Positions 18,092-63,900 of a DNA stretch of 64,000 nt are shown here, in pieces. Every line of letters begins with the position of its first letter. Position 1 is the stretch's first letter. The notes below the pieces were generated by a model, which was not told where the DNA came from, did no database searches, and saw nothing but the letters and a program-made list of their open reading frames with translations. The translations under genes were made by a program, and so were the position numbers. The DNA lies in NCBI RefSeq assembly GCF_000002425.4, contig NC_037262.1:10501129-10565128 (forward strand), read 5' to 3'. This DNA is from Physcomitrium patens (lineage: Eukaryota; Streptophyta; Bryopsida; Funariales; Funariaceae).

Positions 18092-21000
18092 TTAACATTG
18101 TAAATGTATCCGCGTAGATTGATCCTCAACTCTATTTCCTGGTTTCATTCCGCTTGTGGAACTTGAAGCAACTCTAGGATCGACAACTCTAAACCCTAAA
18201 CTGGAAAACCATAGTTTATCCAACAACACAAAGAGCAACTCCCGTATAGAAAAGGGGGAGTGCAGCGTTGTTGTGTTTACCATTACATATCCCAGCTTCG
18301 ACATAGAGCTCGGTGATGTGCACACGAGCCCTGCCGTTGCTCCAGCCTCGTGTAGCCCTTCAGCTCCTTTCCCCACTCTGCAAAGCTCACCATAACAGCT
18401 GACAATATTCAGAATGGCCCATTTCGGTGATGCAGAGTGAACAAACCGATCTATAACAGCAGAGATCGAGATATGGATCCTACGGAAGAAGGTGAGGCCA
18501 ACAATGAGGTATAAAAACACATAACATGCCTTGTCCTCAAGTAGATCCGCTTCTTCGTGCAATATGCGAGCTGCTACTTTCCGCACCTGTAAATGCAAAA
18601 CATCCAAAACTTTTATCAACTTGGTCATTTCATTCTCATACATCACCTTCTGTAACATTTTTCAGTATCCACAGGTCTCTGGTTCTGATCGTTCGTATAT
18701 GGATACGAATCCTAGTGGGGCTTGTACTGGAGATATTATGATTTTAGGGTTATATTTGAGAATACTGACACCTGCCAATCCAGTTGCAGCTCGGTGAGTG
18801 ATTCATACCTGTCGTTCCCAGTCTGTGCGCAGTGTAACACAGAGAAGGATTAGGGTCTGAGTGGCCAACCCACAAATAAGACCCAAGAAAAGGCCCTGCA
18901 TGTATTCCGTAGTAGATCTCAGGTTAGCTGATGTTCACAGACCGAGATAACAAAAGAAGGAAACGTTTCTGTATGCGATTAGCTACTGAACAAGTATTCA
19001 TCAGTTATTAGGGTAAAGCTTGGGTTGCGATGATCTTCATTTCTTATGTTAAAATCTACATGCTGAGAGAACTCTGGAAGACCATCAAGTTCCTCAAACT
19101 GCTGAAAATGAGGCATACACTTGTAATGAAATGAAATTCACTAGATTCTTTCGAACTTGGGTGCGTTACCACGAACCTCACTTAGATCCTAAGAAATTTT
19201 CTACGTTGATATTGAAAGGCTGGAAAAGCTGACATAATAAGGGCTCAAGGATGACATACTCGGCCTCCAAAGTTGAATTCGAAGGCAAGAAGTGCGGATG
19301 TCGGAACCCCCACTCCATAGAAGGCGCCTAGGTTAATAATCGCGCCGAGCTCTTGCCACCCACATCCTCTTGCCACACCTACATAACGCAAGTTTGTCTT
19401 TGAATCCCACTAAACTAGCTTCTTCACAGTCCATTCAAGACTCCTTGTGATTATCAGGAAATACAAAAGAAATGACACACACACACACACAATCATACAC
19501 ACAAAGCATACCTGAAAGAACACCCTGAATGCCATCAAGAAGGGCAATGCAAGCAACGAAAGGTAAAATTTCCGCCACTGAATCCACCACTTCCGCGTCG
19601 CCACTGAACAACCAGGCCCACTGGTGACGGAGCGACAGAAGCACGGAGGAAATGACCAGGGCTTGCGTTGCGGAGAGGCTGACAACTGAGACGACAGCTT
19701 GTTTTGCCGCAGGAGCATCGCCTGCTCCAAGCTCATTTGACACTCGCGTACTGCAGATGTGAAGTTAATCCCATCAGCTCGTCCCGAAGACTTTTTAAAC
19801 GAAGGATCAATTCCTTTATTGCACTCTACAAATGGTCATTGGTATGCTGATACTGCAAGATGGAAGCTCACTAACTCGTGTTACTGGAACGATGATGCAC
19901 AAAACTCAAGGCTACATGCACACCAAGATGGAGGAAGTAAATGAACCTGGCAGCGGCGCTCAGGCCGAAAGGGATCATGTAGTTCAAAGACGTTGTAGTC
20001 AAGCTGCAACATCCCACTGGTGGCGTTAATTCTATCGCCTAAGCTGTACAAAGAAGGAAACATGAAAGTATAGATTCGCAATCTAAGACCGCGAAAAAAC
20101 CCAAAAGGAAAGATCAGGTATGAAGGCTTACCACACAGAGAGTGTTGCAAGTTCAAGTTCTGGATTCGGGAGAAGTCCAGCTAAAATGACTAAGACTTCA
20201 AAGCACCAGTACTCGAGGCTGTGCAGATCATGTCAAGACGGAGACTTTACATCAGCCCCTTCCACTCAATAACTCCAGCCCCAGACATTGCGACACTTCT
20301 CAAAACCAAAATCGGCAAAGAAAAGGGAACCAAATTAATTCGAGTTGGTACATAATGGACTTGCCAGATCATTATGCAAGATGGGATAGCCAAACCGAGA
20401 AATTCCCGCAGATCAACGAAGGCATTCTTCGAGAAGCCCTCCCATGTATGTTTACACACGCCCGAAAATCTCACGTAGCAGACCAAGAAAATGGCGTTCA
20501 GCCAAAACGACAAGCTCGTTGCCAAGGCAGCCCCGCGGAACCCCAAACCTAGCATATAAACAAGAGTGTAGGAAATCCCCACATGCAAGGCCAGCGACCC
20601 TGCTGAGCAGATCATCATCGGAAGCACTACACTCTGGGTCTGCAAAAACTTGACCACGGGCTGTAGCAGGGCGTAGCCATAGATGCTGGGTAGCAAGCAA
20701 AGAGCGTACTCGCCTGCTTTCTCGGAGATGTGAGGGTCTTGCCCTAGCAACAGAAGAATGTGCTCCATGTAAATGAAAAGAAACGAAATCGGGATGCACG
20801 CTCCATAAAGCACTACAAGAGCTCGTTGCAGGAAGATCCCCAGCATGTGGTGGTGTATGGGGCCAGCCCCGAATGCTTGCCCGCAGAGAGTCTCCAGAGC
20901 GCTCCCCAGACCTAGCTGCAGCTCATAAACCAAACCAACATAGGGAAAAATCCCAATCAATCTCACCGATAAGGGCATGAACTTCAAACCTTGAAATCAA

Positions 21001-21715
21001 ACCAAATCCAGTTTCAAATAATTCATGCGAGCTGGTTTACGACATTGCAAAATGCTCAAATCAATTTGAAAATGAACATGTCTTCCATACACGACCTTCA
21101 ACGACCTCTCTAACGATGCAATCTCTAGCAAGTTGAGAATCCCCTTCTTCTCGTGTGTTTCCTCCCTCTCCTGTATCCAATTCAAAAGAAGTGCCACTAA
21201 CTTACGTAGCCATGAATGGAATTGTTTTAGAGAAATTGAGCAGACAAGTTTACAAGAACATAGTAGCCTAGGACACCGGCGAGCGAAGTGGCAATCGAAG
21301 CACCGGCAAGCTCCTTCTCTCCCAAATGACCCACGAATGCCAACGACACAACCGTGATGGAGTACTGCAACAGGTTTACGATAACCATAGGCCCCGCCAG
21401 CCAACACTGTCGCCCCAATTCCTGCCATACGGTGAGCTTCTGCGGCACCGGCACGAACTTCACGTCTCCAGACCAGCCTCCCTCCGCATCCTCACGCCGT
21501 CCATCCGCCTGCCGCTGCCCAGACAACGACGCCTGCAACAGCGGCTCCCGACCGGCATCCCAGCTTGGGCTGGAGTATGACCGCAAGAAGGGATGCGGGT
21601 CCTCCGTCTGGCTGTGTGATCGAAAAAATCCTCCTCGAGATGGGAACGAGGAAGCTGGCGACACCAGCTTCGAGCTGCTCCGGGTCAGGGTCGGAATTGC
21701 AACGGACGACGACAT
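18092..21715 (-). CDS. MATE-family efflux transporter (DETOXIFICATION type)
   Basis: Cation-coupled multidrug/metabolite exporter with two MatE domains. Exons: 21715-21254, 20915-20365, 20218-20132, 20003-19947, 19750-19512, 19378-19260, 18895-18809, then from 18586. The first seven give 534 aa covering both MatE repeats. A long Ser-rich cytosolic N-terminus (about 80 aa) precedes the first membrane helix (WLAGPMVIVNLLQY). Family hallmarks include VGHLGEKELAGAS, LETLCGQAFGAG, GLLPNPELELATLS, STRVSNELGAGD and GVARGCGWQELGA. Intron 2 (20364-20219) fits only with a GC donor (TG|GCAAGT); the join restores the expected MIC-LEYW. The 3' end is unsettled. From 18586 the frame stays open to 18092 (698 aa in all), longer than usual. 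A second possible GC donor (AAG|GCATGT at 18530) would end this exon at LLEDK. Substrate unknown. Confidence 0.9.
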
Positions 21716-24714
21716 GGTTGAATCACGCTCACCTCTTCCCAGTCGCTCAAGCGTTGTAAAACCAGCATATCACGCTTCACAACAAATCCGAAACACTAGC
21801 TGCATCAGACAAGTCGTGCAATACTCCTAAAACTCTAGTTGAGAGCACACATCCTTCAAACCCCTTCGGCCATCTCACAAAAGGCTTGGCTTCGACCCCA
21901 ACGAAATTCGCTCACTCCACTGTCGACGATCCGCCTAATGACAGTCCTGTGCACAATGCCCCACAAGGATCCGCGACCACAACAGGAAGCTGAAAACACA
22001 CATCAGCAGGGGAAAATGCTAGAGGAAATCTCTCGCATGGTTGGAGGGACTAGTCATCGAGAGGCGCAAATCGGATGCATGGCGAGGCACACAAGTGGCG
22101 AGCGGTGAATCCACGGTGCCTTTGGCTCTGCGGCAGGGCCATCGTCAACGCCGAAGCGGTACTGCTTCGCGAGCATTTGGGTAACCTCAAATGATCCATT
22201 CAGTTGTAACATTCATTGTATTTTGACCTTTAACTTTGTTTGCTAGAACTTTACCACGACCTATAAACCTGGATTGCATCTGATCCATGAAATTTGCACC
22301 TTGGGGTGAAAAGCAATATCACGACGCATCGAAGGATCAGACTAAAAACTGTTTTAGAATCAAGTTACGTGTTGCAATCAAGGGGATATTGCTTTTCACC
22401 CCAAGGTGCAAGTTTTATGGATCAGACACAATTTTTTCACAGGGGAGGAGGAGGTTAATAGTTTAGGGATTCATGTTAACTGAGATCTGAACATTGCTAT
22501 TGTTAATAATGTGTTTGCAACCTGTGTATTCCACGAGGTAAATTAATGAAGGGTCGAGGAGGAAGTGATTGCTGCCTTTTTTGCTGTCTTGTATTGTGGC
22601 TGCATTTGTAGTTAGATGAATGCTTCTGTTGAATTATGAGCAGTGTATTTGTAAAAATCTAAAGGACGTGACAATATATTCAAAATACCTATATCTCATC
22701 TAGAATGTAAAATTTCTTTTATATATATATATATGTATTTGTATGCACATTACATAAAATATTTATGCATTTTGATTTGAACATGACCATTACTTAAAGT
22801 ATGTTTCAAAATTGAATGTAATTTTTATAATCTCTTTCAAAACTGTTTTTTCTATTAAGGCAGTAATTCAAATTCTTAATTTTGTGCTTTAAAAGTAGTA
22901 ACAATGCATTTAAATAATTCCTTTGTTACAATTTTATATTATTTTATTTATTTAAAAGATAATAACGTTTATATCAAATGAGACATACTCAATACAATTC
23001 TAAAAAAATATAGAATTTGAATTTGAAATCAAAATTAAGAATTTGAAATGTGTCCAATTCTTTGATTATACACATGAAAAAAAATACTCGTTTCACTTTT
23101 ATAAAGAGTATTATAATAGTTTTATTTTATTTAAATTGAAAATCTAAACTAAATAAATAAATAAGATGTAGTTTTAAGCTTTCTAATAAATTGGAAAAAA
23201 TCTATTGCTGTTTTTTTGCTTTGTTACTGATATAAATAGATAGAACACTATGTTTGAAAAGTAAATCTAAACAGTGGAAGACTTTGAAAATATAGATGTA
23301 ATCTAAGTTGTTGGTATTTGTAATGAAAGATGTAATTAGAATCTAGTATCATTCATTAATTGAGCTATGATGTTAAAAAAAGTTCAAAAAAAACTTCTAA
23401 TTTCATTTTTATGAAATCATAACTTAATTTGTAGCTTCTTATTAGTTTTTGATTTATTTATTTATTTTTGTTTTGGTTGTTCAAAAATTATCTTCTCACT
23501 ATTGTTGATAAATTTGCCATTGCTCCACACATTGAAGAAAAATATTTCATTTCGTCTATGCACATTTGAGAACAAAGTATAGAATGAAGGGCAACAGCAA
23601 CTTCAACTACAAGTCATCTTTTTCTGTCAGTCTCTTCTTGTGCCTTATGGAGTGTATTACATTTTACGAAGACTTTTCAGCAAGTTGTGACAGCACAACT
23701 GTCAAGTATGTGTAATCGTTACTCAAAAGCTGCTTTCTGCTTGTCGAAATATTTGGTGTCCACCTCAATGTGGTAAATGTGATACTATTAATGACGTTAC
23801 AATCCACAAAATTCACAAAATCCACAAAACTAGGTCATGTCGCAGGGGCTTGTTTGTATAATTGCACTTCACGTTGGAAATGGCTCTTGCAACATGGTAA
23901 ATGTACATGTAGAGAAATGACATTATCTCAAAGATAGGCAATTAAATTTAACTGGCACAAAAAGCACTGATTCAAACATTAAGGATGGTTGTGTGCACAT
24001 TTGTTGAATAAAACTATTTCTAATATTAAAAAGAGTTCCTGTTGAGCAACTTTCATTCCTAGGCCACTTGCCAGAATGCAGGGATTGAGTTGTTCAGAAA
24101 TGTCTCCAAAAAGGCAATAGAATTACCTCACGATTCCCAGCTGACTACATTCCGAGAACTGAGGATCGTGACTCTGTCAGGTTATAATGATGTGCAAAGA
24201 ATCACTCAAGATCATAGACACCCTGTCGTCTTACTGACCCTCGCACAATAACGGGTGTTGGATCAGACTCCATCACTATAATTTGCTAATAAAAAATAAT
24301 TAGGGCAACATGCGTGTCCACTATATTTTTCATGAAGTAGCAGTTTGTAACGCCTTAATGCGCTTGCACACAGGACAAGCTAGGAAGGGACAATTTCCTT
24401 CCCAGAAACTTCCTTCAGATTACGAGGATCACATAGTTATGATTTATTACGCCACGAACTTCTCCCGAATACTGAGCTAGAAAAATCATTTCCACTTGAT
24501 AGTGCGACAGCATCCTAAATTCACCAATCATTCAAATCCCCAAACCCCTGTGAAGCTGAGCCCACAACATAAACAAAACCATCCGTACATGTCAAGCACT
24601 CAGACCTGACTCCATATCAGCAGTTTTCTGGTTTTACCAAGTGTAGCCAACTGGAACTCTAGCGAGATTAAGATCATTCCTAAAGACACGAACACAAATT
24701 CAGAAATTCTCGAA
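21716..24714. other. Spacer between MATE gene and basic nuclear protein gene
   Basis: The part 21716-22200 has moderate GC and is likely promoter and leader of the MATE gene. A long hairpin lies at 22279-22426. The part 22500-23550 is AT-rich. The part 23550-24714 has moderate GC and probably includes the 3' UTR of the gene ending at 24715. No further coding region was recognised. Confidence 0.6.
22279..22426. repeat. Long inverted repeat / hairpin
   Basis: Arms 22279-22320 and 22385-22426 are 42 nt each, with a 64-nt loop. They are reverse complements except at two positions. In a plus-strand RNA both mismatches become G-U pairs, so all 42 positions could pair. The shared core is CACCTTGGGGTGAAAAGCAA. 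It could be a small MITE or a small-RNA precursor. Confidence 0.85.
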
Positions 24715-26798
24715 CTAATTTTTTTCCTTGCCATTTTTGTCAAAAAATGAGGAAAGAGGTAATGGACCAACCTCCTCACCATCACTACCGCTGCTACTGT
24801 CTGTTGTACTCTCAGATCGTCTTCTTCGTGATCTGTGCCTCTCCTTCCTCTCCTTTCTATCCTTTCTGCTCTTTCGTCGATCTCGGTCTTTTCGCCGATC
24901 ATTGTCACTGCTAGAGCCATCTGCTGATGACTCAGAGTCGCTTCTACCACGACGCTTCTTAGAAGATGACCTCTGCCGACACAAATCGTGACGGATTAAT
25001 GAAAATATAAATATACACTTTTAAAAAATTTGGAATTGGCACCTGATCGAGCATACTCAGATACAACGGTGCAATTCTCCACGAGTTTGGTAAAATTACC
25101 TTTCTTTTCTTGATACTTTTAAGCTTGTCCTTGTCTTTGTCCCTATCTTTGTCCCTCTTGCCTGAAACATAGAAATTAGTTGTTCATTCAGTACACATGT
25201 CGTGTATTCCAAGCATAATGTGTGCAATCTATCAGTTGACATCACATAGATAATGGCCACATTGCATTGAACTGCCTAGATAATATGCACCAGTGGACCA
25301 ATCAGGTTTTACACAATCAAGAAGCTTAATCATAATCGCGATTATGACATTCAGAAGTATCCAGCACATCCAAGGGGCAGGCTCTTAGCTCTTACTCTTT
25401 TTTAAGACTTTATCCCGCAAGGTGGCATGGTTTGATCCTCGTGCTAGTTTCTTCGCTCGCTCAGCATCCAATTGTGCTCGATATTCCCTCATTAACTTAG
25501 CCTCATCAACTTCAAGTTCTTCTTGTCTCTTGGCTTCCTCCTACAATAGCGAAGACCCAATCTTCAGTAATACCTTCAACAATAGCAGAATAAAATATTG
25601 CTTATATCTATGCAACTTGATAATACTACAAGTTCTATCAAACTGCCTAAAAAGAAATGAAGAGAAGAGAAAAGGAAAGGATACCTTCTGCTTCTGCTTC
25701 CACTCTTCCCACGTAACTGTGTGCGAAGTCTGAAGAGATGCCAGACGTGCAGCATGCCATTCTGGAGAATGGAAAGATCCGTCCATCTGCGTCTCCTCTT
25801 GTCAGTAGCTCTCCAGGAAACACTAACTCTTCTACCTTACTCATCATTCAAAACCAAGACCTCTTCAAGATACGACACTTTTTTCAACAAGTCTATACGG
25901 GATGTCAGCTACAAGAAATTCCAGAAAAAGAGGCCTGTGTCATGACTAAAGTGAAAAAAATATCGCAGTCAGTCGGAATATCTATCCAGTTTATCACGCT
26001 AAAATGTAAGATATAGGATGACGTGAGGACTACATATTTTGGTAAGACTGCTGACACCGAGTCACAGGGAACAAGAGCATGTGCATAAATTGTTCTCCAC
26101 TGCCACATCCTAAATAATATGACGGCAGGCCCAGTTTTGCGTTGTAATTTGGTAGCGAAACTTTCGTTGATGAATAAAAACTCTCAACTACTAAAGCCAA
26201 TGATTTCCAACATTGACGAACAAATTGAATGTTTTGAATAAGACATCCAATTACAGAACATCAACCCAGTACACAGGCAATCAACGTCTAAAGCAACAAA
26301 GTTTGGGTCGCACGTAGAATACTGATTTCTTTATCAGGTTGAAAACTTTATAATCCAATCCAACAAGAAAGCAACTCCTAATACCCGATTCCTACTACAT
26401 AATAATTAAACACGAGGTTTCGACAAGCTCTCACAAGGAACATCCAATATACGGCACCCGGAGGTTCCTCCTCAATCATTGGTAGAACGATATTGAGGGC
26501 TAACAAATAGGCTGACAGATGTTCCTGCGTGAAACATAAATTTATTTTCTCCAACAACGTAACGCGCTCCTGAAAGCAAATTCAATGTGTGTAATGCGCA
26601 TCCGGACAACCAAACATACAGTGGTGCCTGAGGCTATGGCTCTAACTACAAACTCCCCGTTGCAACGACAGTAACTAAAATCGGGGGTGGAAGAATACAC
26701 ACCATGCCATCATCAATCTCTTCGCCCGGACCGCCGGCAGCAGTACTTGTGCCCATTTTGGCCCGCTGCATCGCCTTGTATGCCTGATTCTTCCCCAT
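24715..26798 (-). CDS. FAM133-like basic, Ser-rich nuclear protein
   Basis: Five exons: 26798-26703, 25786-25685, 25540-25396, 25161-25100 and 24972-24715. All are GT-AG with consistent phases, giving 220 aa. The N-terminus MGKNQAYKAMQRAKMG leads to GSFHSPEWHAARLASL and VTWEEWKQKQK, then an acidic/basic helix (MREYRAQLDAERAKKLARG). Then come KD/RD repeats and an Arg-Ser and Lys-rich tail, ending in GPLPLSSFF and a short basic end. This layout matches plant proteins I recall as FAM133-like: conserved N-terminal third, RS-like tail, likely nuclear and perhaps splicing-linked. The name is from memory and function is unproven. The 3' end is in frame; a possible donor (ATG|GTGAGG) at the SGSDG position could give another C-terminus. 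Confidence 0.78.
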
Positions 26799-29073
26799 AG
26801 CTACAAAACGCGTCTCCTTCACTTACCCTAATTGACACCCAATTTTATCTCCGCAAAGCCTGCTCCGAACTCGTCCCCACCAAGAAATGGATCTAATTAA
26901 TCCTCTCAAATCCTCTCCAACACCAATCCATTCCCAAAACCTAAAACCCTAAATAATGGAACCATTGCAAGAGCCTTAGCTCCCAACAATCCAACGAATG
27001 CAACCAAATTCCTCTGAGAAAAAAATTAAAAAGGTTCACGCCTCAAAATATACAGAAAAAAAATCCCCCGCTGTCAAACTCCATCCCCGGCTTCAAGTAA
27101 CAATATCATACTCTTCAAACCCCCTTCGATTCAAACGAACAGCTTAACTGTCGAAAATCCCCGACCCAAAACCGACATTCCACTAGCCTCATGGGGGGGG
27201 GGGGGGGATTAACACAGGGAAACCAAAACCCTAATGTATCAAAACACCGTTATGGGTAAGCGTCAGAAAGGACCAAATAAGGGACCCAACAAGGGTAGTG
27301 TGGGTGGGTGTAAGTCAGGCAAGCAAGCTGGCTATGGCGATGGAAGCCTTCATGAAACCAACCCCAACTCTGTGAAGAGAGACAGAGCCAGAGCCAAAGC
27401 CAAAGAGAGATGGTTGATGAAGAGACCACTTCCACCACACCACCCCCCCCCCCTCGATCAACTGTCGCCGTCCCCCCCCCCCCTCGTTCCTCGAACTGCT
27501 CGTTCCCCATCCTCGTTCCCGTTCTGCCCTCCCGCCCGTCCATTGCCTACAATTAGGTTTCGCAAAAGTAACTGCAAAGTGCCGGGTTCGTGTTCACACT
27601 GTGCAATATTGTCAGTGTGTGAGGGTTTGTGCTGACTGGTGTGCTGCAATACGAAGTGGCATTGGCCATGAATGAATGGATATGTGAGTAGGCGTTACTT
27701 TGTTCCAGTCCTTCTTCATGAATGATCTACATTTGGCTTACATTTCTATGCTGAATGGATTGAATTGGATCGTAATGTGATTTACTTTTTGTTCTACTTT
27801 TATTTTACTTTTTATATTACTTTTTTTGCTTCTGTTTTCTCGAGACTATATTTCCTCTTACAAAAGTACCCAAAAAATGTTGCAGTTTCTTTTCAGTTTG
27901 ATTGTAATTTCACTAATGATTATTATTATTATTATTATTATCCATATTTCTATGATGGATCCTTTGTTATCTTTATTTCATTTGGATGTGGTAGTTTGAT
28001 TTCTAATTTACATGTTGTATTTTGTTCATAGTCACCTAAATAACTATATGTGTTAAAAGATGGTTTGTAAACACCATATCTTTTTTATCCTATATTTCAA
28101 TGCATGTAAACAAATATTTTACATGGCATTCTATTCATACATGTAAACAAATATTTTACTTTTAGTATTGCTTGTTTTTATTTTCTCTCTAAGGATGGTC
28201 CACAAAATCACTATTGCAACAAGTGTTTTGAAATGTTAAATGTATTGTTACCTTGCTCCATGTTTTGAATATATGACCAAAATTATTAATAACTAAAGAA
28301 AATTTAAGGAGATGTGAATGAACTCTTTCACAACTTGTTTGGTATCAAAATTGACGTTGATTCTATTTCTAATCTTATAATTCAATGAATGTGAAAAAAA
28401 TCTATGTAGTTTTGTTTAATTAGATTAGACTTTATAAAATTTATTACTAAACGCTTCTTGCATTTGTCATTTATTTTTATACTATATGTGTCTAATAAAA
28501 AGGTTCTTGTAGACATACAAGAAACAGATTCCACGATCCAAATTTACATAGAACATAATAATCTGATGTTTTCCAAAAGAGATTTAAGCCTATCATATAT
28601 TCAGTAATTTTGAAGAGAATTTAGAGAAATCAAGGCATTAAAATTTGCTTCTAAATACTAAAGTTGTAAAATAAATAAATAAATAAATTTGTAATAACAA
28701 GTCAATCTTAAATATTGGTTTCTCTTAATCTCAAAATTCTTCAAAGAGTAAATTCAAAAAAGAACAGAACAAATATAATTGGAAAAAAACAAAAATTGGA
28801 ACAATTTTTAAATTACAGAAACAATATGTAAAACACAGAAGTTTGTTGCTAAAACCTCCAATATGAATTCTTGCATATATATATATATATATATACATTA
28901 CTTTTTATCATAGATTTAAAAAAAATTAAGTCTTATTGAAATAATAGCAGATCAACTTGAAGAGACAGAAGACAGATATGATAATGACTTTTGAAATAAA
29001 ATATCTATTAAAATTATGATTCAATTTTTTTTGTAAATTTTTTACATCTTAAAAAAAAAATTAGTACCAGTTA

Positions 29074-40521: not shown

Positions 40522-43500
40522 ATGGATGGTAAAATCGGATCGGAGGATGAGTTTCACGAAACTTTGGAAGATATTACATCGGCATCAAGTTCAGAGGCTG
40601 AAGAGGGTGGTCGAAGAGCTATGAGAGCGGGTATAGCCGGAGTTGCTCCGGCAACTAGCCGTGAACGGCCGCCCGTTTGGACACCTTCTTCATTTCATTC
40701 CAAGTTTTCAGTGTGGAAGAATGATCCCAGTAGTATTACTGATCGCAGGCAGCGATTGTTTCAAAATTGGGGAATAAAAAATCTCAGAGAGGACCCCAGT
40801 ACTGGTTCCACATCTTCACTGGCGAACAAAAGTTTGTTGACATCAGGAGCTGACAAGGTTGGCCAGTATGTTTGGAAAGTATCTCAAAGTGTCTCTTGTG
40901 TATCTTCTGCAGATACTGATGTGAGTGGTAGTCGTTCCCTTTTTTCTTGTTCAATTTGTTGAGTTACCAACTGTTGAACTTGTTGCGGAAACTACTTTTG
41001 GTTTTACCTGACCTTAGAAACTATTTCAGGAAAATAATCACACTTTAATATTACTGAAATCGGGGGCTTCTTGGGAAATTTAACTGTACTCAGTTATACA
41101 CTCGTTTTAAGTATTGGATGTTTCAGAAAGCTTAAACTTGTCCGCCATTTAGACTCTTTTCACTTGATGATTTGCAGTTGGAGGGGTTCTTAAAACCTTA
41201 CTCTCAAACGTCTTTTGAGACTTCAAACTTATGTTGAAGTGATTTCCATGTAACAACCATGTAGGGTGTGGTATACTTTGCCATTCTCTATTTTGTTTTT
41301 GTTTTTTAAAATTTCGGAGTGTGGACTTCAGAGTTAAGTTGCTTTAGTTGAATTGCACTGAAGCAAGTCTTCAAATGACAGAATTTGTGGACGTCTCACT
41401 CCGTCAGGGGGACTGAAAATCGAGATTGGTCGATGTTGGACTGAAATAGATTATAGGACTCATGTGTCTGTATTTTTTTGTGTGCAGGAGACATCAGCTC
41501 GTGAAACATTAGCAGAAAAGAGAGCAGACTCTAACACTGTAGAGAACGGCTTCGCGATCGATTCTGGCAATAAGCGACTGGAAGAGAACAGTGGTGCAGT
41601 TCTGAGGGAAGGGAATAGCAAACTAGGTCCTGTGCTCTCTAGATTAGGTCCAGTGTCAGCAGTGACGTTTCGTGAGGGATCCAATGGGAGCACATTTAGG
41701 AGCTCTGGAAACAGTCCTGACGTTAGTCCCTATCCAGAATGTCACACTAAATTGATGGCGAGCCCTGAGGGTAGCCTTTCGCCTCTTTGGGATGGCTGCG
41801 CAAACACGGAAGCTGGACACCTGTACCAAGCGTCCAGTTCTCAGGAAAAATTGTCACATTCATATGATACTGATAATGGCTATGAGACTAGAAGTCAAGA
41901 TGGGTACAGTGCAGCTGAAGACTACAACATCGACGATTTGTTGAAGATCAAAGACTTGGACAGTGGTAAGGAGTTTTTAATTAATAGGTTCAGCACAGAT
42001 GGGTCACTGCATATGCTGAGGGAGGTTGATACAGGTAGGGAGCTGACTTTGGCAGAATTTGAGAAGGTTGTGGGTCTTTCTCCAATCACGCAGGAGATGA
42101 TGAGACGGCAACAAGCTGCAGAGAGTGGGTCTAGCAATGAGAAGCAGGGATCAGGGAAAACCTCGGGTAAAAAGAAAAATGGTTGGTTGAAGTACTTTGT
42201 GGTGAAAAGGTCTACAAAGGAGAAGCCTGTAATAGGAGGTAGTACAAGAAGTGATAAACAATCCCTCAGCGGTGAGGATACAGATGGCTCCACAAAGGGA
42301 GGAAGACTTTCTCCAATTGGATCTTCGAAGGGAGGTAACTCTAGAGAAGGTTCATTCGCCGATCCTGACAGGGATGTATCTACCAAGGGCGAGCTTCCAT
42401 CTGATGACACTGCTGGCCCTACTTGGAGGCAACCTCAGAAGGTAAAAGTCAAGCTGCGTCGGAAATCTGTCAAAGAGCTTTCAGGCTTATATATGGGGCA
42501 GGAGATTCAAGCTCATCAAGGGGCGATTTGGACTATGAAGTTCAGTACTGATGGACGATACCTCGCTAGCGCTGGTCAAGACCGAGTGATTCAAGTCTGG
42601 GAAGTCGTGGATCATCCATCTGTTTTGGAATCTGGTATGCCTGCAAAATATATCGTTATTGATGACATTATTTTGTACACTTGCTACGTTGGTGTTGTTA
42701 ATAGACTATCTATTTCTGTCTTAAATTCTGAGGCTTTTGTGCAGATATCTCTGGAGGACAGGAGAATGGAGATTTTGATAATGGAGTACATCTCCAGGTG
42801 AATGGCGGTTCCGTCAAGAATGGCAGTGTCAAGGTTGGTCAACACTATAGTTCCAAGGCGGATAAGGAAGGAAGTACGAAGGGTGGTAAGATAGAGAACA
42901 CTGAGGTAGAAAAAGACGGAAATACCAAGTTTTCCAAAGATAGTAGTACCAGGAGTGCCAAGGAAGGAAGTACAAAGGGTGGTAAGATAGAGCACACTGA
43001 GGTAGACAAAGACGGAAATACTAAGTTTCTTAAAGAGTGTAGTACCAGGGGTGCTAAGGAAGGAAGTACTAAAGGTGTAAAATCACCATGGCAAGATTTG
43101 AAATTAGGCCATCCGCACAAAGGTCATTTACCGAAGCTCTTCTGGCTGTCGGAAAAGCCCGTGTGCTCCTTCCATGGCCACACGGGGGATATTTTGGATT
43201 TGTCATGGTCGCAGTCCAAGGTACATTTGAGAGCATAAGCTAGTTTTTGAATTTCTGTACAGAGTGGCTCTTAATTTGTATGAGGGATTGTTACCATGTC
43301 GGTGTTGTGTTGAATTGTTATTTCAGTTTTAGTAAATACTGTGTTGCTCTGTCTGGCAGCTTCTTTTGTCTTCATCAATGGACAAAACCGTTCGGTTGTG
43401 GCACATTTCGGAAGAGGATTGCTTGCGGGTGTTTTGTCATAATGATTACGGTAAGTAACACTCTTTCTATCTACCTAGTTTCTTTCTCTCTCTCTTCTCT

Positions 43501-45704
43501 CCCTTGGGAGTTACTCAGCTGCTTTTAACACTTTCTGGTATCTGCATTGAGTGAACTGCCATTTTGGAGGTCCTTATACTTAAGTTCTCTTGATTGTCCT
43601 CAGCTTTGAGGTCATAAAACATAAACTTCAATTCACGTGAGCATGGAATAAGTCTTAATTGCGATTGTAAGTAGAACGGTTTTCTGTACTGCATGATTTA
43701 CATAGTTTCTGAGAAAGACTTAGAGGGATGTTTCTTATCGACGAATTGTTTTGTAACAGTTCTCCTCTAACATGACTTGGAATGCAGTAACTTGTGTACA
43801 GTTCAACCCAGTTGATGATAGCTACTTCTTAAGTGGATCCCTGGACTACAAGCTTCGGACTTGGAGCATTCCTGGACATCAAGTTGTTGACTGGATTGAT
43901 CTGCGCGAAATGATCACAGCAGTGTCCTACGTTCCTGATGGAGAGGTATCTATATATTTTCTATTGATTGTGATTGCAATAAATCAAGGAAGTCTGAGCT
44001 GTTTATTTCTGGTGGAGGATCTAATCAAGCACTTCGTCTCGATTCCAGAAAGCAATTGTTGGTTCCCACAAAGGGACTTGTCGTTTCTACAACACCAAAG
44101 GTTTGTGTTTTTCCGTTTTCGTGTGCTCCGTGATATCTTGATGTGTAGACTTTGCATAGTGGTGGTTTTACTTTCTTAGATGCTTGTTCGTTTGGAGTGT
44201 TTGTGGTTCATTTCAGAAGAGAAATTATTTCTCTTATTTTACAAACATGTTGCTGGAGTTTAGAAGACTGAGATGGAAGTTAGTTTTACAGGAAACAAGT
44301 TGCAGCTTGATGCTTCTTTTGATGTTCGCACTGAGAACAAGAAAGGAAGAGGGAAGAAGATAACTGGACTACATGTAAGATAATTTCAATGATACTGCCT
44401 TTTCATGGTCTTAAGTAGTGCCATGTGTTCGTCTTATGATACTCACGTCTGTTGTAGTTGGACTCAGTTTGAGTGTGGTTGTACAATCAGTTTCTCAGTA
44501 ATTCTGCCTCTGAATTTTATGCTGAGTACCATTGCTGTAGGTTAACGGATGTACACCTGGAGTACGTTCATCTGTACCTGATAGCTTGTCATGTGGTAGT
44601 GTATGCCTGGAGATCCGCAGAAAGTTCTCGTAACTTCAAATGACTCTCGCATTAGAGTCTACGATGGCATGGGACTTTGCGCCAAATACAAAGGTTTTCT
44701 CAACTTTACGGTGCTTATTTCAGTTTGGAAGTAGTCTGCTTTGTGCGTTTCTCCTTTCCTGGACCTTTACACCCCATCAATCTCATTCGTGGATCTGTGT
44801 CTGATACACTTGAATACTTGCAATTATTGTTGCCATGACCAACTTGTTTGCACATTATTCTTTGCTCTAATTCCTCTGATTTACTGATCTCAATGTAGGT
44901 CTGAAGAATATAAACAGCCAAATCTCAGCGTCCTATACTCGAAATGGAGACTACATCATCAGCGCAAGCGAAGATTCTCGAGTTTTAATTTGGAGTTCGG
45001 ATAACAAGGACCCGTCCTCTGCCAAGTCGCTTTATGGAAGAGACAAGCAGCTGGCTTGTGAAGAATTCAGCTGCCGTTTCGTTTCATTGGCTATACCGTG
45101 GCCGGGAACCAGAAACTACTCAAGTTTTTCACAGCCGGATATTGGAACCCCAGCTGGGTCTGACTCGAATGGCGACGCACGTGCTGCAAGTGAAGCTGAG
45201 TTTTCTTCCCCACCAAACTGCGCGGACTTGGAACAGTCCGACGACAAATTTGATTGCTCTGACAGGTTTCTAAGTTGCAGGGATCCCTCAGACAGGTTTC
45301 TTAGTTTTAGGGATCAAGTTGACGTAGATGAAGACTCTGATTCTATTGACCAAGTTGATAGTGCGAGGTTTGAAAATCAGGGTTCTCTCTCAGGTGATGG
45401 CGAGAATTTTTTTCCTCAACCACAGTCGTGCAGGAGCTTCTTTGATAGCATTGGACCAAATGGATCGACCACGAGATGTTCGGGAGAACAGCCTCCTGCA
45501 TCCGGCAGTCCTTTGTCCTCTGGGTTTGGCATGATGCGCTCAGCCTCGCTAGGAAGTGATGATGGCAGACGCATTGTTGAAGATACAGCTCCAGCGGAAG
45601 ACACTCCTGCAGTTTCTGCTCTCTGGGGTTTGGTGATTGTGACTGCAGGGTTGGATGGTAAAGTAAGGACATTCCAGAACTATGGCCATCCTGTCCGGCT
45701 TTGA
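40522..45704 (+). CDS. WDR44-like WD40-repeat protein
   Basis: Nine exons: 40522-40920, 41488-42634, 42745-43220, 43360-43450, 43788-43945, 44049-44100, 44292-44374, 44600-44693 and 44899-45704. All are GT-AG with matching phases, giving 1101 aa. An in-frame TGA just upstream fixes the ATG. The first 470 residues are acidic/Ser-rich and hold a conserved-looking block (REVDTGRELTLAEFEKVVG). The WD40 propeller follows: AHQGAIWTMKFSTDGRYLAS, HTGDILDLSWS, SSSMDKTVRLWHI, VTCVQFNPVDDSYFLSGSLD, KVLVTSNDSRIRVYDG, SASEDSRVLIW, and a closing TAGLDGKVRTF at the C-terminus. The Ser-rich insert before the last blade is about 180 aa. This matches plant WDR44/Rabconnectin-like proteins (animal WDR44 binds RAB11; plant partners unclear). 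Exon 3 carries 96-bp tandem repeats. Confidence 0.9.
42864..43080 (+). repeat. 96-bp coding tandem repeat in WD40 gene
   Basis: Starts at 42864, 42960 and 43056: two full units and a partial third, 32 codons each. The unit begins KEGSTKGGKIE and continues with NTEVEKDGNTKF or HTEVDKDGNTKF. Unit length is a multiple of three, so the frame is kept. It lies between the first and second WD blades. Confidence 0.92.
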
Positions 45705-49688: not shown

Positions 49689-51821
49689 GTCCTATCTTAT
49701 TTGTCGAAAAGCAGAATTGGAACCCATCATTATCTCGTTCAACACAGACTCTGAGAATTCTGAATTTCCAAGCCGAAGGATGTAGAAACTTTTACCTTAG
49801 GACTGCAGCAGATTGTATCACTTGGTATTCTTCAAGTGGACTGAATCTTCGGGTGTCTGAGCTGATGATGATTTTCTCCAATTTTTTTCCCTCTCTTTTA
49901 TATTTCTTAGTGACGTATCTGTGCTTCTACTAGCCGCTGCTGAAACGTGCCAAGGGCATGACTGGTTCCTGCTTTCTGAGTAGACTTTCTATCAGTCACT
50001 GAAAGTGGTAAGTTCAGTGCTTGTCAGCTATCCATAACTACATTGATAATTGTTTCGCTAAATGGTTATATATATATATATATATATAATCTTCAATTTT
50101 TTTTTTCTATAATTGGTATCAAATATACATTCTAGCTGGAAGTCAATTGGTTGATTACTAAGATATATGGAAGAAATTTCGCCAGTACTAAATACACTTT
50201 TCATGATTTACTACAGTATTATATGTCTAGTTTTCACATAAAACATTAACTTTTCATTTTTCACGAAATATTCTACATGAATTATTCTAAAAATGCCTAA
50301 ATCAAATTTCTAGTAATAAATGTTCATCTACCGCATGGGCTAGGTGTCTTTATCATGTACATCTGTTGCACTCCCCTCCATCTTCTCCCAGCCCAAATCC
50401 ATACTCGGCTCTATTAAGATTGGCATTAACAACATTTAAACAAATGAAAATGAAAATGGAAATGTTCTTCAATTTATTTACAAATAGATGCTTCTAGTTT
50501 AAATTTATTATTAATAGCAATCGTATATAAAGTTAAAAAGTACTTCAATGTTAACCATATCAATTACATCCTAAGTTTACTTTGAAACATGCTTATTACG
50601 TAACATTTATGAAAAGTAATAATTATCGGGTTTAAATTTCTTCCAATAGGACTGTTATGAAGTAATATGTATGCATTCAATTATTACTTAAACCATATAC
50701 ATATACAAAAATTACAAGTATGTAGATCTTTGATAATGGGATTAAAATAACCAAGGAATTTAAAAAAAAATACCCCTTGCATCGCATCGTGTATGATTGA
50801 GTATTATGAGTTTTGTCGTCCATTTTCTTTGAGGATCTTCCTACAGCCTCGACTCTTGTCTTCGCCCGACGCCCAACACCAAGTATAAGATATGACCACT
50901 TTAAGAATAAATTTGGATACTCAACATGTGAGGGGTACATTTAAAAATTTCCCAAAAATCATTGACAATAATGTGCCCATGTGTCATTTTCAATTACATA
51001 CTAATTTTTTTGAAAACTAACTTTGCACTAAGCAATTAAAAATTTAAATACAAATTAATACATGTTATATATTAAAACAATGATAGAAAGTATATATTGA
51101 TTAAATCTATAAAAATAAATAAAAGAATCAACCAACTTAACAATTTCAGTACCCTTTTACACGAAATAAGCAAATAAAATGTCTCTAAAAAAATCAAAGA
51201 AGAAGAAAAGAAAAGAATTAAAATACTTGTAAAATACATCAATATGTATAATAACTTACTTAAGTTTTTAGTAAGGTTAAAAAAATAAAATAAGTGGCAA
51301 AATCAAAAACATACTAATTGCCAACTATTTGTATAAACTAGTCACTTAAATATAAAAAAAATTATAAAGTACAATTGTTTTGAAGAGAAGACCGAGTACA
51401 AGATTGATATATCACACCTAATTTAGTTTTTTGGAAGTGAGGTAATTGTTCTCGTTTATTGGCAAGAGACAGGAAGTGGCACATACCACACCATGACTTC
51501 CAAAGCACTCAGCATCCCTGAGAATGAAGCTCCAATTTTAATCTCCGAAAACCCTAATTTTTAACACCGACTTCATGACGACTGCTCCGGCAACGCATGT
51601 CATGGTTGCGCTCGAGCTCTGCGGGAGTCTGAAATTGAGCTTTGGTCTCGGTAATGCCGCCGCTGGTACTCCTCCATTCTCCTCCAACACAGGGGCGTGC
51701 ACTATTGAGGGAACACGCACTCCCCGAAACCTGAGAATCACGATATGGGTTGGAAATTTGTTAGTGATCCGAGTTTTGAAATGCACATCACTCAACAAAC
51801 CCCGCGGACTGCAATCGCGAT
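49689..51821. other. 3' flank and AT-rich spacer
   Basis: The part 49689-50050 is likely 3' UTR of the ENH1-like gene. The part 50050-51480 is AT-rich with a (TA)n run at 50070-50089 and no gene seen. The part 51480-51821 has higher GC and lies downstream of the glucanase frame. A plus-strand frame at 51575-51976 overlaps the CBM43 sequence antisense and is not supported. Confidence 0.6.
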
Positions 51822-52124
51822 CTAGGCATCTGCAAACTGGGGTCCGGTTTCGAGGAGGACGAAGAATGTGTGCGAAGTTTGTAGATGCTTACTGGGATCG
51901 GTGGAGGTCAAGACGCCTGCGCCGTCAAAGGAGCAGCTCGCGCCAGCGCCCTTATATTTCTGCCAGTAGCTGTTGAACGCCCAATCCGCATGCCTCACTA
52001 GGGTGTTGGGAAGATAACAGCTCTGGCCTGGTTGAATGGCCGCGCAAAACTCTGCGTCTGCACCACAAGCAAAGTTGAAGACATTCTCAAGCGTGACGGG
52101 ATCCGAAGCCGGATTGTCGATGCA
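51822..52124 (-). pseudogene. CBM43 (X8) module cut off by an in-frame TGA
   Basis: Directly after the TGA at 52127-52125 the same frame stays open for 100 more codons to a TAG at 51822. It encodes CBM43 hallmarks: CIDNPASDP, NFACGADAEFCAAIQPGQ, SCYLPNTLVRHADWAFNSYW and GASCSFDGAGVLTSTDP. CBM43 domains begin with a Trp-Cys pair. Here the TGA stands exactly where Trp is expected before CIDN, so a TGG-to-TGA change explains the break. A GT donor at 51873 (CCCA|GTAAGC) may mark the end of the exon. Confidence 0.8.
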
Positions 52125-53602
52125 TCATGTGCCTGACCCGGACACAAGTGGCGAACTGTCGCTGCTAGGACTGTTTTGACTGTCGGAGAGCTGGCCCGTG
52201 AGGTCTAAGGCGTACACTTGGGAAAGGTTGGGGTAGAGAAGTCCCCAGTTGCGCTCAGAGCCGGCTCCAGGCTTGAGGTTTTCGTTAAAAAGAGCGAAAA
52301 TGTAAGATGGGATGATGAAACCAGGCCGGCTAGGAGTGCCGATTTGTGTTGTGGACAGTGCTTTGCGCACCAATCGCCGATTGTAAACTGCAGCGTTGTC
52401 GATTGGGGCGTGAACTTGTGTTGGGTCGCCGGCTGTGGGCCATCCAGTCTCCCCCACGGCGATGCGCAAGGATGCGAACCCCAGCTTGAAAGAAGCAGCA
52501 TACACTGCGTCCAGCTGCGCGTCCATGAGATTAGTATACGTGAGAACGCCATCTACGACGTCGTTTGTTGAGTTGGCAAACATGGCGTAGCTGAGGCTAA
52601 TGTCAGAGCTGCTGGAACAAGTCAGGAATGGATACACGTTCACGAACAAGTAGGAACTTGTGGTAGTGAGGAATGTGAGCAGGGGCTGAATGATATGCGT
52701 GGCAATATCCGAGCGAAATGATCCTGCAGAAGGGGGGAAGGAAGAAGTCAGCACGTCCAGTGCTACAGCGGTGGAAATCTTAATCTGTCCCGACCATCCG
52801 AGGCTCTCAAGCGCGGCGTGAAGGTTCTGGATCGCTGGGACAAGTGACGTCCATGTCGATTGAAAAATTGTTCCAGTGAAGATCTCGTTTCCGACGAGGA
52901 TGACCACGATGATGGTTGCGGGATAATACGCTGCAACGTGCTGCTGAACCCACGCATTGGCTGCGGAGGGGCTTGCTCCAACCTCGACAATTTGCTCATT
53001 CGGAACCGCCACCACGACCTCAATGCCGGTATTCGCAAGCGCAGTCAGGATTTTCTCATTCGGATTGAAAATCTTCACTCTTCCAAATTTCATTGTCTTG
53101 ATGGCTGCGACTGCGTCGGTAGGACTTGGAAGGTTGTCGCCAAGAGTTCTGTAGTTGATGCCTAAGGTGCGAAACTGTTGCGCGTATCCGCCTGCAATTA
53201 GATATATGCAAATTAAGCGCCTTCAGCGCATTCACAACTTCATGCTCCAGAACTTTTTGCATGAAACACCTTATATCAACAATTCTCTGCCTCGTACTCC
53301 CTCTGTTCATCGGTTTGGATCATATCACTGAAAGTTCCGTGTTTCGAATCAGTGAATAGATCACAACCATCAGCGGAGCTTCTCAAATGTCCATTGATCG
53401 AGGTCTTTCAGATCACTTAGTGCAATTCAATCATTTAAGAGCATCAATCTTTTACGGAGTCGAAAGAATAAGAAGCCAATCAATTTAAAATTACGAAGAA
53501 TTTGTGTGTCTTACTGTCAGCGGGAGTTTGTGCCCAGCAATGCCAAATAAACAACACCAGGCATAGTGAGAGTGAAAAGGGTGGCGACATCTTTGAATTC
53601 AT
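52125..53602 (-). CDS. GH17 glucan endo-1,3-beta-glucosidase, truncated
   Basis: Cell-wall/callose glucanase of glycoside hydrolase family 17. Exon 1 (53602-53515) encodes a signal peptide with core SLSLCLVLFIW, cleaved probably after WAQ. Exon 2 (53191-52125) carries the catalytic domain. The join is GT-AG, phase 1, giving 384 aa. The start of the mature domain (INYRTLGDNLPSPTDAV) is followed by KFGRVKIFNPN, the acid/base Glu in VILVGNEIF, FVNVYPFLT, the nucleophile Glu in VGETGWPTAGD, and FNENLKPGAGSERNWGL. All expected catalytic residues are present. A Ser-rich linker ends at a TGA, behind which the CBM43 module continues in frame. A second ATG at 53590 is also possible. As read, the product is a secreted glucanase without its carbohydrate-binding module or GPI region. 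Confidence 0.88.
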
Positions 53603-59172: not shown

Positions 59173-60975
59173 TTAGTTATGAATACCTGCACACACTTCA
59201 GGTTCTCGCTTTGAAGCAATTTGCAGCGAAGGATCGCCAAGCTTTTGCACATGTTTGAAAGCAGACTCGGCAAGAGTTGCATTCAAACTCACGGCTTTCG
59301 CAACAGTGAGCATTCTGCATATATTCTGAAAGTTTGGTCTCTGTTGAGGATCCAGGTTCCAGCAGCTTTCAATGCAGAAACGCAGGCAATCAGGCAGGTT
59401 ATCCGGCAAATCAGGCCTTAATCCATCTTTGATTTTCTCGTGAAGATCTTTTCTTTCAAGTACACGGTGAAAAGGAGTACGACCAGTGAGAATTTCTGAA
59501 CATGTCATTGCAAAACTCCAAACGTCAGCCCTGGGAGGATAATTTGCCGTCGTGGTGCCATTCTCAGCTGGGAGGAAAACCTCAGGTGCCGCATACACCG
59601 TTGTGCCCAGCTTCCGAGTTTGAGCACCTAAGGTTTCAGTGTGCTGGTATACTTTCGATATCCCAAAATCTACCAACTTCACATGCAAAGAGTTTCCTTG
59701 AGTTTCCACTAGTATATTAGCGGGTTTGAGGTCTCTGTGGGTGATCTTACTCTTGGTGATCCTCTTACCGTGAAGGTATCGCATTGCTTTTGCGATCTGA
59801 AGCATTATGTCGATCGCCACAGGCAGTGCAAAGGGTGGACTGCCTGGATTCTTCTGCTTATTCTCCCAGATTTCAAGAGTGAGGTTCGTACGCATAAGTT
59901 CCATTAGTATGTAGGAATACTTCTCATCCTCCAGAAAACAATTCTTCATTTTGTCAATAGCTATACGGTCGGTAACGATCTGCTCCCAGGACCAAAAGTA
60001 CTGCACGATATGTGGATGATAGCAAAATTTCAGAAACTTCCCCTCCAAAGCATTAGGTTCAAGAATTATTTTCACTGCTTGCTTGGGAATGTTCAGGTGC
60101 TCCAACCCCTTGGTTTTATATACGTAGCCATATGCACCTTCACCCACGCTCTCAACCAATTGGACCTTCTTTCCGAAGTACTCGTCTAAACATTTGACGT
60201 CACCATCAGGAATAGAGTTACCTTGTAACTCTTTGAGACGGCACTGCAAGTAGGTTACCAGCAGGTGATGCTCCGACCCCTTGTCATGCTTCGAAACCTC
60301 TTTCTCAAGCTTGGACAGCAGATGTGCCTTATCTTTATTAGCTGCCTTTTGCAAATCTTCCAAGTCGTCCGACAACTTGTCATAAAGTGATTTCTGCTGT
60401 GTTTCTGCCTTGGCCACGTTGCTATCTTCGTCAGTATCTACTGTACTATCCAAGTGGCTAGTAGTTGATAATTTCAACATGCGTGTGCACCATGCAAGCT
60501 CAAGTTCAATATCCAGCACATGCTCTTTGATATCTAGAAGGGCTACTGCTGCACAAAGCCACGATTTTCTGTTGCTGCACCTGCATTGCTTAAGCAAATC
60601 AGTTGCTCGTTTCATCACTGCCTTCAATTCTTGGTAGATCTTCTTTTGAATTCCAGTCATTTTCAAAGGATCATACTGATCATGTATGTGGGTTTGCGTC
60701 TTAGCAAGCTTCTTTTCTAAGCGCATGCAAAGTTCTACATTAATTTGAAACTTGCGTCTCTGTAATGAAGGACCAAATCCAAGGTAGAGAGACAGAAGTA
60801 TCACCGCTACCAGAAGCACGAATACAATAGAATTCATCGTACTACCCACGTACTTTGAGATGAAGATATTTACCAAACAGTTACAGAGTTCTGTGCTACA
60901 AGCTGGAAAAATTCTGAACAATTTTGTTACCCAATAGACTTTAGATCCTGGATTCTCGAAGGTTGCCAACCACAT
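59173..60975 (-). CDS. Membrane-anchored protein kinase with N-terminal helical domain
   Basis: A single open exon of 600 codons from the ATG at 60975, the first after an in-frame TAA. Residues 49-68 form a membrane helix (VFVLLVAVILLSLYLGFG). Residues 75-255 are a long helical domain (SWLCAAVALLDIKEHVLDI, ELELAWCTRML) resembling the helical bundles fused to kinases in bryophyte families and in plant MLKL-type proteins. The kinase domain (about 270-560) is intact: VGEGAYGYVY (277-286), Lys302, HRDLKPAN (413-420), DFG (437-439), APE (463-465) and WSFAM. The full catalytic set suggests an active kinase rather than a pseudokinase. No extracellular receptor domain is present. The GCAG|GTATTC near the end (59187) could be a splice donor joining downstream exons. 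Confidence 0.88.
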   Translation of the reverse strand: MWLATFENPGSKVYWVTKLFRIFPACSTELCNCLVNIFISKYVGSTMNSIVFVLLVAVILLSLYLGFGPSLQRRKFQINVELCMRLEKKLAKTQTHIHDQYDPLKMTGIQKKIYQELKAVMKRATDLLKQCRCSNRKSWLCAAVALLDIKEHVLDIELELAWCTRMLKLSTTSHLDSTVDTDEDSNVAKAETQQKSLYDKLSDDLEDLQKAANKDKAHLLSKLEKEVSKHDKGSEHHLLVTYLQCRLKELQGNSIPDGDVKCLDEYFGKKVQLVESVGEGAYGYVYKTKGLEHLNIPKQAVKIILEPNALEGKFLKFCYHPHIVQYFWSWEQIVTDRIAIDKMKNCFLEDEKYSYILMELMRTNLTLEIWENKQKNPGSPPFALPVAIDIMLQIAKAMRYLHGKRITKSKITHRDLKPANILVETQGNSLHVKLVDFGISKVYQHTETLGAQTRKLGTTVYAAPEVFLPAENGTTTANYPPRADVWSFAMTCSEILTGRTPFHRVLERKDLHEKIKDGLRPDLPDNLPDCLRFCIESCWNLDPQQRPNFQNICRMLTVAKAVSLNATLAESAFKHVQKLGDPSLQIASKREPEVCAGIHN

Positions 60976-63900
60976 GTACACGGAATAAGGAAACCCTGAT
61001 TTCGAAGCTGGTCTGAATTACACATTCGCAATAAATCAAGTGCACAGATGAAAGAAACTAATGCTCAAATGAAGAGTATTGACTATTAAATCTTTTGGAT
61101 GTGTTACACCTCAACATCCGAGATATCCGCGACCGCCCGATGAACCCACTTCCTTGGGATCTCGTAAAATTATAGGTCACAGCATCTTGCATCGTTCATG
61201 AGATCCTGACCAGAAAACAGAAACCGATTATCACCGGCAGATACAAGCCTCCACAAGGACCCTGAAGCCACCAGAACTCGTCCCACATGCCAATCCTCAA
61301 AGAGAAACCGCGAACATCAATCTCTGGCCACTACCAAAACAAGTTGCAACAAGAGCATGCGGCAGAGAACGGGTAGTCTTACAATCACGAAGTACTGTAG
61401 TGTGGATTACTGTATCTCTTGTAGGTGGGTGCCATTCTGCCACCTAGCTCAACCTCTACGCAAAATGCAATGCAGAAGGAGGAAAGCGGTCAACATTCAC
61501 ACATTCCAGAGTATTCCGAGAGCACTCAGTGCAGCTTCACAGATCGTCTAACGTAGTTTTTAGGGTTTACTGAGCACGTTGAAATGAGTCAAATGATTCA
61601 GCTTGACTCCATCAAGATGCTAATGCCGTTGTACAGACAATTAGTGCGGTACCGATTCGACAATGCTTTGAGCATTGTGCACTGTCCGTATACCGACAAG
61701 GTAGTCATTCTTAATTGTAACTTGTCCGGGTACTTACTCTTCCCCTCTATTGCCATGTGGATGGTGATGTGGATTTAACTTCCTTGGATTGTGTGTTCCT
61801 TGCCCAACACCCTCATCCCCCACCCACTCCATATTCCTTTCGTTTAGTCGTTTTTCAACAATGGGGGATATCGTGTAAATAGTGGGTCCAATGAGGCTTA
61901 ATTTGACAGTGATAACATGTTGTTCAATCCCACCAGCATGTGCTCTGGGTTCCTGCCTACCATACCCTTCCCAACACCCCTCTTGAGTAGTTTTGTTTTA
62001 AAAAATAATATAATTATTACCATTATTTCTACACAAGAGGGGTTAAGTAAACGCATGGTCGGTATTTGGAATTCAAACTGTCAACGTTTTATTTTTGTTT
62101 ATCCTTTTAGGTCCCACTTGCCATGTTGTAATAGTTGAAGATTCTTTTGCATTACTTCTTCTTGATGTATCTTGAAGTGTCTAGAATTTATTTTTTATAT
62201 TTTTGTGTTGTTGACACATATGAAGAAAAACTTTACTGCAAATTGAAGGAGGCAGATACAGACACCCCGGCCAGATCTGGCCAGGATGGGTTACATGTAC
62301 AAGCTAGGACAAATAAGTTTCCACTTGGGGTGATCCCAATCCCATATAGCAATTACTTAGTTGCAACACCATTGCCACTGGAATTCTTCCTTTATAATTT
62401 CTGCTGTATTAGGGGTCTTCATGATCTTTTCCTGTGTTGACACCCATGCCAATCTTCCATAGTCCACCAAGCTGAGTCCATATACATTATTCTGTATATT
62501 TTTTCTTTGTGCCAATGTCTACCTTTGAATGCCACATTGTTGCATTCCACATGATGATTCCACACAAGAGTTGCCAAAGTGTATTGGTTTTCTTGAACCT
62601 CTGAGGTATTATGTGTGCAAATATGCCATGTTTTGAAGTAGGATTAAGATTTTGAATGATGTTTCTTCTTGCTGTTTGATTGATGTCAGGTTGGGTATTC
62701 CTGCTTGCACAGTTGTCACATCATCCTTTACTTGAGGGCCAATTGTGTACATTTGCTATCATTTCTTCTTCTGTTGGATTAACACAAACACAACCACCTC
62801 GAGGTTGATTAGGTTGTGAATATTGTTTGGATACTATGAGTCTTTGTACAACCTTAAGGTCCCATAATCACATGAGGAAAGCCAATTCATATTTCCAAAA
62901 ATAATATAAAATAGTTTTTTTTTTACTTGCTAAAGACATGAGATAACACTTATCTGCACTCTTATTTTTTTTGGTCCCTCCATGTGTCAATTGCAACAAA
63001 TTTGTGTCATACCAACCATATAAGGCTAAACTCTTTGTATTCTCTTTGTTTGTTCCAAATATTTTTCTACTTGAGCTTACATAAGTTTGGTAAAATCTCA
63101 ACTCATTTTTCTTCTATCACAATGGAAACCTAGTATCTCTTCTAAAGTAATTGCCTGCCTAATTGAGTTGAGTAGCTTAAGAAGTGGACATTATTAGGAC
63201 AAAAAAAGAAGCCAAGCTCCCATTGTAGTCAATCTATGCAATTGTAGAATAATATTATGGTATTATCCTTCTGTTTGCATCTATTCAATTCTACCCAATT
63301 GTGATGCATAACTCTTTGTATATTGGTACTTCTATTAAAGCATGTGGATCTATATTATAGAGTATTAGCACTATTGGTAACTAAGGTGTGTGTATTAGCT
63401 TATATTTTAATCATCTGCATCAATGTATGGATCCAAGACAAGGCCAAGTTTAGCTATTTTGTGTATTCAAAGTAGGATTGAATAATTGTGTATGGAATGA
63501 AATCACCATCACTCTCGTAAATGCCAATTCAATCACATGTTTTTGTTTGATTCATATTAGAATACAACACATGTCTCCAATTGCACTACATTTGCTAGAT
63601 AGTCGCTTTCCATGTTGATATTTTATCAAAGAAAAAGCCAAATCAAGCTTCTGCTTTGCTTGTAGAAATGAATCCCACCATGATCTATATGTCTTAATAT
63701 CTTCTCATCTATGCTTTGTAAAGGTGAGATGCTTTTAGTTTAGAAAAGACAACACTATTCATTGGCATGGTGGAGTTGTGCCATAAGTTGTTACTCAATA
63801 CATCCTTAAGATGTTCTAGGGGCATATATAAAATTTCTACTCGAGCTTTTTTTATATGGTAATTCTACTTCATTGATCCCTAATGATATTGATGTTTCAA

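Follow-up and report, generated by a model that had tools for sequence, protein, structure and literature searches.

The locus was modelled from sequence as a minus-strand gene of three exons (53602-51702) in the window, that is, the whole stretch of 64,000 nucleotides of Physcomitrium patens DNA that was analysed. Exon 1 (53515-53602) opens with the start ATG at 53602, followed by a second ATG at 53590, and encodes a hydrophobic N-terminus which, judged by eye only, resembles a secretion signal. Intron 1 (53192-53514, 323 nt) separates it from exon 2 (51893-53191), which holds a GH17 domain, a Ser-rich linker, an in-frame TGA (52125-52127) and most of a CBM43/X8 module, with the TGA standing at the Trp position that precedes the first Cys of the module. 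Intron 2 (51731-51892, 162 nt), bounded like intron 1 by GT..AG, leads to exon 3 (51702-51730), where the module ends with FGECVFPQ and a TAG stop. Exon 3 is supported by both closest paralogs in the same genome, in which a matching intron is followed by SYGACVFPH and a stop (L014, contig 3) or SFGTCLFPH and a stop (L013, contig 26). For the more distant paralog L005, no equivalent of this exon was found within the range scanned, and in the same scan a candidate was present for paralog L001. This model revises two points of the preliminary description of this DNA. The TAG at 51822, at which the gene had been ended, sits within intron 2, and the roughly 100 clean codons that had been read past the TGA are in fact 86, reaching to the gene end at 51702, the last of those claimed being intron 2 sequence. 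The corrected 3' exon (51730-51702) matters for annotation whether the TGA is real or an error.

Upstream of the TGA, residues 39-359 match PF00332 over profile positions 1-305 of 306 (285.4 bits versus a curated cut-off of 28.2, E 8.7e-85), and the translation contains the motifs ILVGNEIF and AVGETGWPT, being of the VGNE and GETGWP type in which we take the two Glu to have catalytic roles. Both motifs align with the VGNE and SESGWP-type stretches of PDB 6jms and 2cyg. By domain match, the locus is a GH17 beta-1,3-glucanase gene, and the corresponding activity is predicted. Downstream of the TGA, PF07983 is matched over profile positions 3-75 of 76 (61.5 bits versus a cut-off of 25.7, E 1.2e-16), six Cys are found among the 86 encoded residues, and the module has no frameshift and its splice sites are in place. 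The TGA column aligns to the W in GSWCVPKP of PDB 2jon, so that a TGA stands where a CBM43 module has an aromatic residue before its first Cys. The module match is not a chance one; the uninterrupted frame past the TGA would by itself prove little, as 5.7% of 20,000 mononucleotide shuffles (232 nt) also stay open. The X8 score of the module (62.2 bits) is near those of L014 (63.4) and L013 (65.1), and it lies below that of the solved CBM43 2jon (87.3 bits), yet it is no worse than in the paralogs. Thus, the intact GH17 catalytic domain, the in-frame TGA at the conserved Trp and the CBM43 module downstream of it, all three claimed in the preliminary description, are borne out, the second of them by the 2jon alignment together with the TGG of four codon-aligned paralogs (see below).

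This organization is the one of plant GH17 beta-1,3-glucanases with a C-terminal CBM43/X8, namely a secretion-like N-terminus, GH17, a linker and a six-Cys X8, with nothing beyond the module for a GPI anchor, and the paralogs L014 and L013, of the same GH17-CBM43 type, share the last intron and exon. In the excerpt of PMC4033164 used here, enzymes with GH17 and a C-terminal CBM43/X8 fall within the "type 1", secreted GHL17. What sets the gene apart from these glucanases is the stop in place of the Trp that precedes the module's first Cys. A truncated product would have the architecture seen in GH17 structures that consist of one catalytic domain (for example PDB 6jms, 2cyg and 4hpg), but, unlike in those, the module here is still encoded past the stop and without decay.

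The genome (470,438,890 bases in 101 contigs) was searched for X8, with 26 candidates scored and at least 25 places found, and this locus is the only one of those places with a stop inside the X8 match. Immediately ahead of the first Cys, 14 of the 25 places have Trp, four have Tyr or Phe, one has Leu and one has the TGA; in the remaining five, the first Cys is absent from the matched stretch. The places with Tyr or Phe instead of Trp form a group of four (L019, L020, L021 and L023); in the one with Leu (L018), an intron may intervene. In all four GH17 paralogs that were aligned by codon, the two closest and two more distant ones, the stop column holds TGG. The identity of the closest, L014, to this gene is 78% (catalytic part) and 79% (module), compared to 70% and 71% for L013, and the 14 bases before and six bases after the single differing base are identical between L014 and this gene. 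The one-base change from TGG to TGA proposed earlier is therefore supported, since the paralogs carry TGG. Relatives in the bacterial and viral collections amounted to 25 and 2 pattern matches, respectively, none of which was confirmed.

Downstream of the TGA, the gene shows no excess of amino acid change. The dN/dS of the CBM43 part, which had been suggested as a check, was computed against L014 (Nei-Gojobori) and amounts to 0.100, with no sign of decay, compared to 0.167 for the catalytic part; the module dS in this comparison is high (1.3), and the distances to L013 are saturated in the module. Amino acid changes unique to this gene occur in 27 of 337 catalytic columns and five of 78 module columns, and those unique to L014 in 21 of 337 and seven of 78, respectively (gapped columns skipped). 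A "dead module" had been proposed, of which the stop is confirmed, as the TGA precedes the module, whereas "dead" is premature, given that otherwise no decay is seen.

A joint codon model of three sequences was used, in which the module evolves neutrally over a fraction f of the branch leading to this gene. The best fit is at f = 0, and the 2dlnL values (module rate shared with the catalytic part / free module rate) are 2.75 / 4.86 at f = 0.10, 4.59 / 7.76 at 0.15, 6.61 / 10.67 at 0.20 and 41.75 / 45.8 at 1.0. Since the model penalises the larger fractions, the module, if untranslated, has been so for at most about the final 10-15% of the branch dating from the split with the closest paralog. 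Taking the 0.433 neutral changes per site that this model gives as the shared branch length, and a mutation rate of 9E-09 per site per year, as quoted in an excerpt of PMC7358436, the untranslated span would, as a rough estimate, not exceed some five to seven million years. Neutrality on this branch is rejected when the module and the catalytic part are fitted jointly but not in the module-only fit, as the latter (78 codons, three sequences) gives a dN/dS of 0.104 with 1 not rejected (2dlnL 2.47). When the intact L014 is taken as foreground, the module-only dN/dS is near 12, in an unstable fit, and the catalytic dN/dS is 0.327, with 1 not rejected (2dlnL 2.38). The earlier suggestion that the change is recent thus finds support in the TGG paralogs and in the joint codon-model fit, and the missing decay is equally expected for an old read-through stop or a sequencing error.

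We consider it likely that the locus carries a recent single-base nonsense mutation, perhaps laboratory-fixed, at the module boundary of a secreted GH17 glucanase gene. According to this reading, the codon for the Trp that opens the CBM43 would have become TGA by one recent base change, possibly in laboratory culture, and ribosomes would halt past the catalytic domain and the linker. As the stop lies between the modules, any protein made would be secreted and comprise the whole GH17 enzyme but lack the glucan-binding module, and the loss of a CBM43 would affect glucan anchoring. In the gene model, the exon 2/exon 3 junction is positioned 232 nt 3' of the TGA, as in targets of nonsense-mediated decay, which is why the spliced mRNA is a predicted target of this pathway and a lowered level is expected. 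In the available part of PMC6009662, splice junctions in the 3' UTR predict mRNA decay in moss, and retained-intron transcripts largely resist it, so the splicing of intron 2 matters. The "secreted catalytic protein" foreseen in the preliminary description consequently agrees with the truncated GH17 product expected from a stop between the modules, but its level may be low because of the decay. Given the truncation and the predicted mRNA decay, the allele would probably have lost part or all of its function, and we infer that it is buffered by the two close paralogs.

Nonsense alleles of recent origin form a general class in plant gene families, and the present case is like them in having one substitution, a frame that is otherwise intact and intact paralogs that remain; unlike in these alleles generally, the stop is at a domain boundary, and the catalytic domain could survive. 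Most likely, the case is ordinary in kind, a nonsense allele and not a new kind of gene expression. If real, it offers a dated one-base snapshot of a modular cell-wall enzyme losing its binding module, in a knock-out-friendly moss, and the glucanase set of the reference strain may misrepresent that of wild plants. The sequenced strain is presumably Gransden. Mutations are described to accumulate in cultured P. patens, for Gransden pedigrees, in the excerpt of PMC7358436, and a laboratory-fixed change is therefore a live possibility. The terms "premature stop" and "nonsense" gave no match in that paper, and the gene is not named in the excerpts of PMC4033164, PMC6009662, PMC9293766 and PMC7358436.

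The main rival to a recent nonsense mutation is a base-call or consensus error, in which case the gene of the plant would have a Trp codon and specify a normal enzyme of two modules, and the finding reduces to a one-base annotation problem. All but one base resembles a working gene, with no frameshift, splice sites in place and no excess change in the module, as such an error would have it; on the other hand, 24 of the 25 X8 places in the assembly have no stop in the match, so that errors of this type appear uncommon, which is a weak argument against a single error. We regard an error as rather unlikely. Tolerated readthrough had also been raised earlier and, whether programmed or tolerated, would yield mostly GH17 alone and a small share of enzyme with the CBM43. 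Its sequence context is favourable, as A-TGA-T resembles Arabidopsis readthrough mRNAs, in which, within the excerpt of PMC9293766, TGA is 25% over-represented at stops and A or U are the commoner neighbours on both sides of the stop. In addition, the module is still constrained in the joint codon model. However, the bases identical in the TGG paralog on either side of the stop (14 and six, see above) indicate that this context was inherited and not selected around a stop, and the remaining 24 X8 matches are all free of stops. A stimulating RNA structure, which is not always required, was not found in the 120 nt after the TGA (z +1.28, 184 of 200 shuffles at least as stable). Therefore, of the case for tolerated readthrough, the context stands, while the flanks and the downstream sequence speak against it, and it appears improbable. 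Slightly harder still to credit is a stop fixed in the species, with low-level readthrough into the constrained module providing free and glucan-anchored GH17 from one gene in a fixed ratio.

Alternative splicing might also take the TGA out of the mRNA, and a donor-like CGG/GTCAGG is present just upstream, at 52137, with six of nine consensus matches, equal to each of the real donors. Yet a scan with simple donor and acceptor consensus and cut-offs found two in-frame pairings, of which the 144-nt one would delete the first Cys residues as well, and hence the module, and the other has its end at the genuine intron 2 donor. As neither keeps a normal module, an intron removing the TGA was rejected as a candidate. 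Moreover, the four paralogs are continuous in one open frame across the TGA position, and we give this explanation hardly any credence.

Within the 64-kb window, no second GH17 or CBM43 was found beyond chance-level matches. The strongest one (3932-3873, E 0.007) was considered as a nearby duplicate and rejected, stops being frequent in all three minus frames there. A DNA search of the surroundings of L014 against the window gave, among the matches listed and besides the gene itself, matches only at ~24-27 kb. These are the stretches 23958-25844 and 26668-27025, with 70-78% DNA similarity to stretches beside L014 on contig 3, and they could represent a repeat common to both places or a block that was duplicated. 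A run of exactly 100 N at 1698-1797 is probably an assembly gap. Elsewhere in the window, exons of a MATE-type transporter gene are found on the minus strand at 20247-21715 (PF01554 matches in two frames), and plus-strand frames at 40522-45704 may belong to one large gene, with a WD40 repeat matched in the frame 41464-42798. Finally, one open frame on the minus strand at 59173-60981 encodes a protein kinase (PF00069) whose N-terminal region is long.
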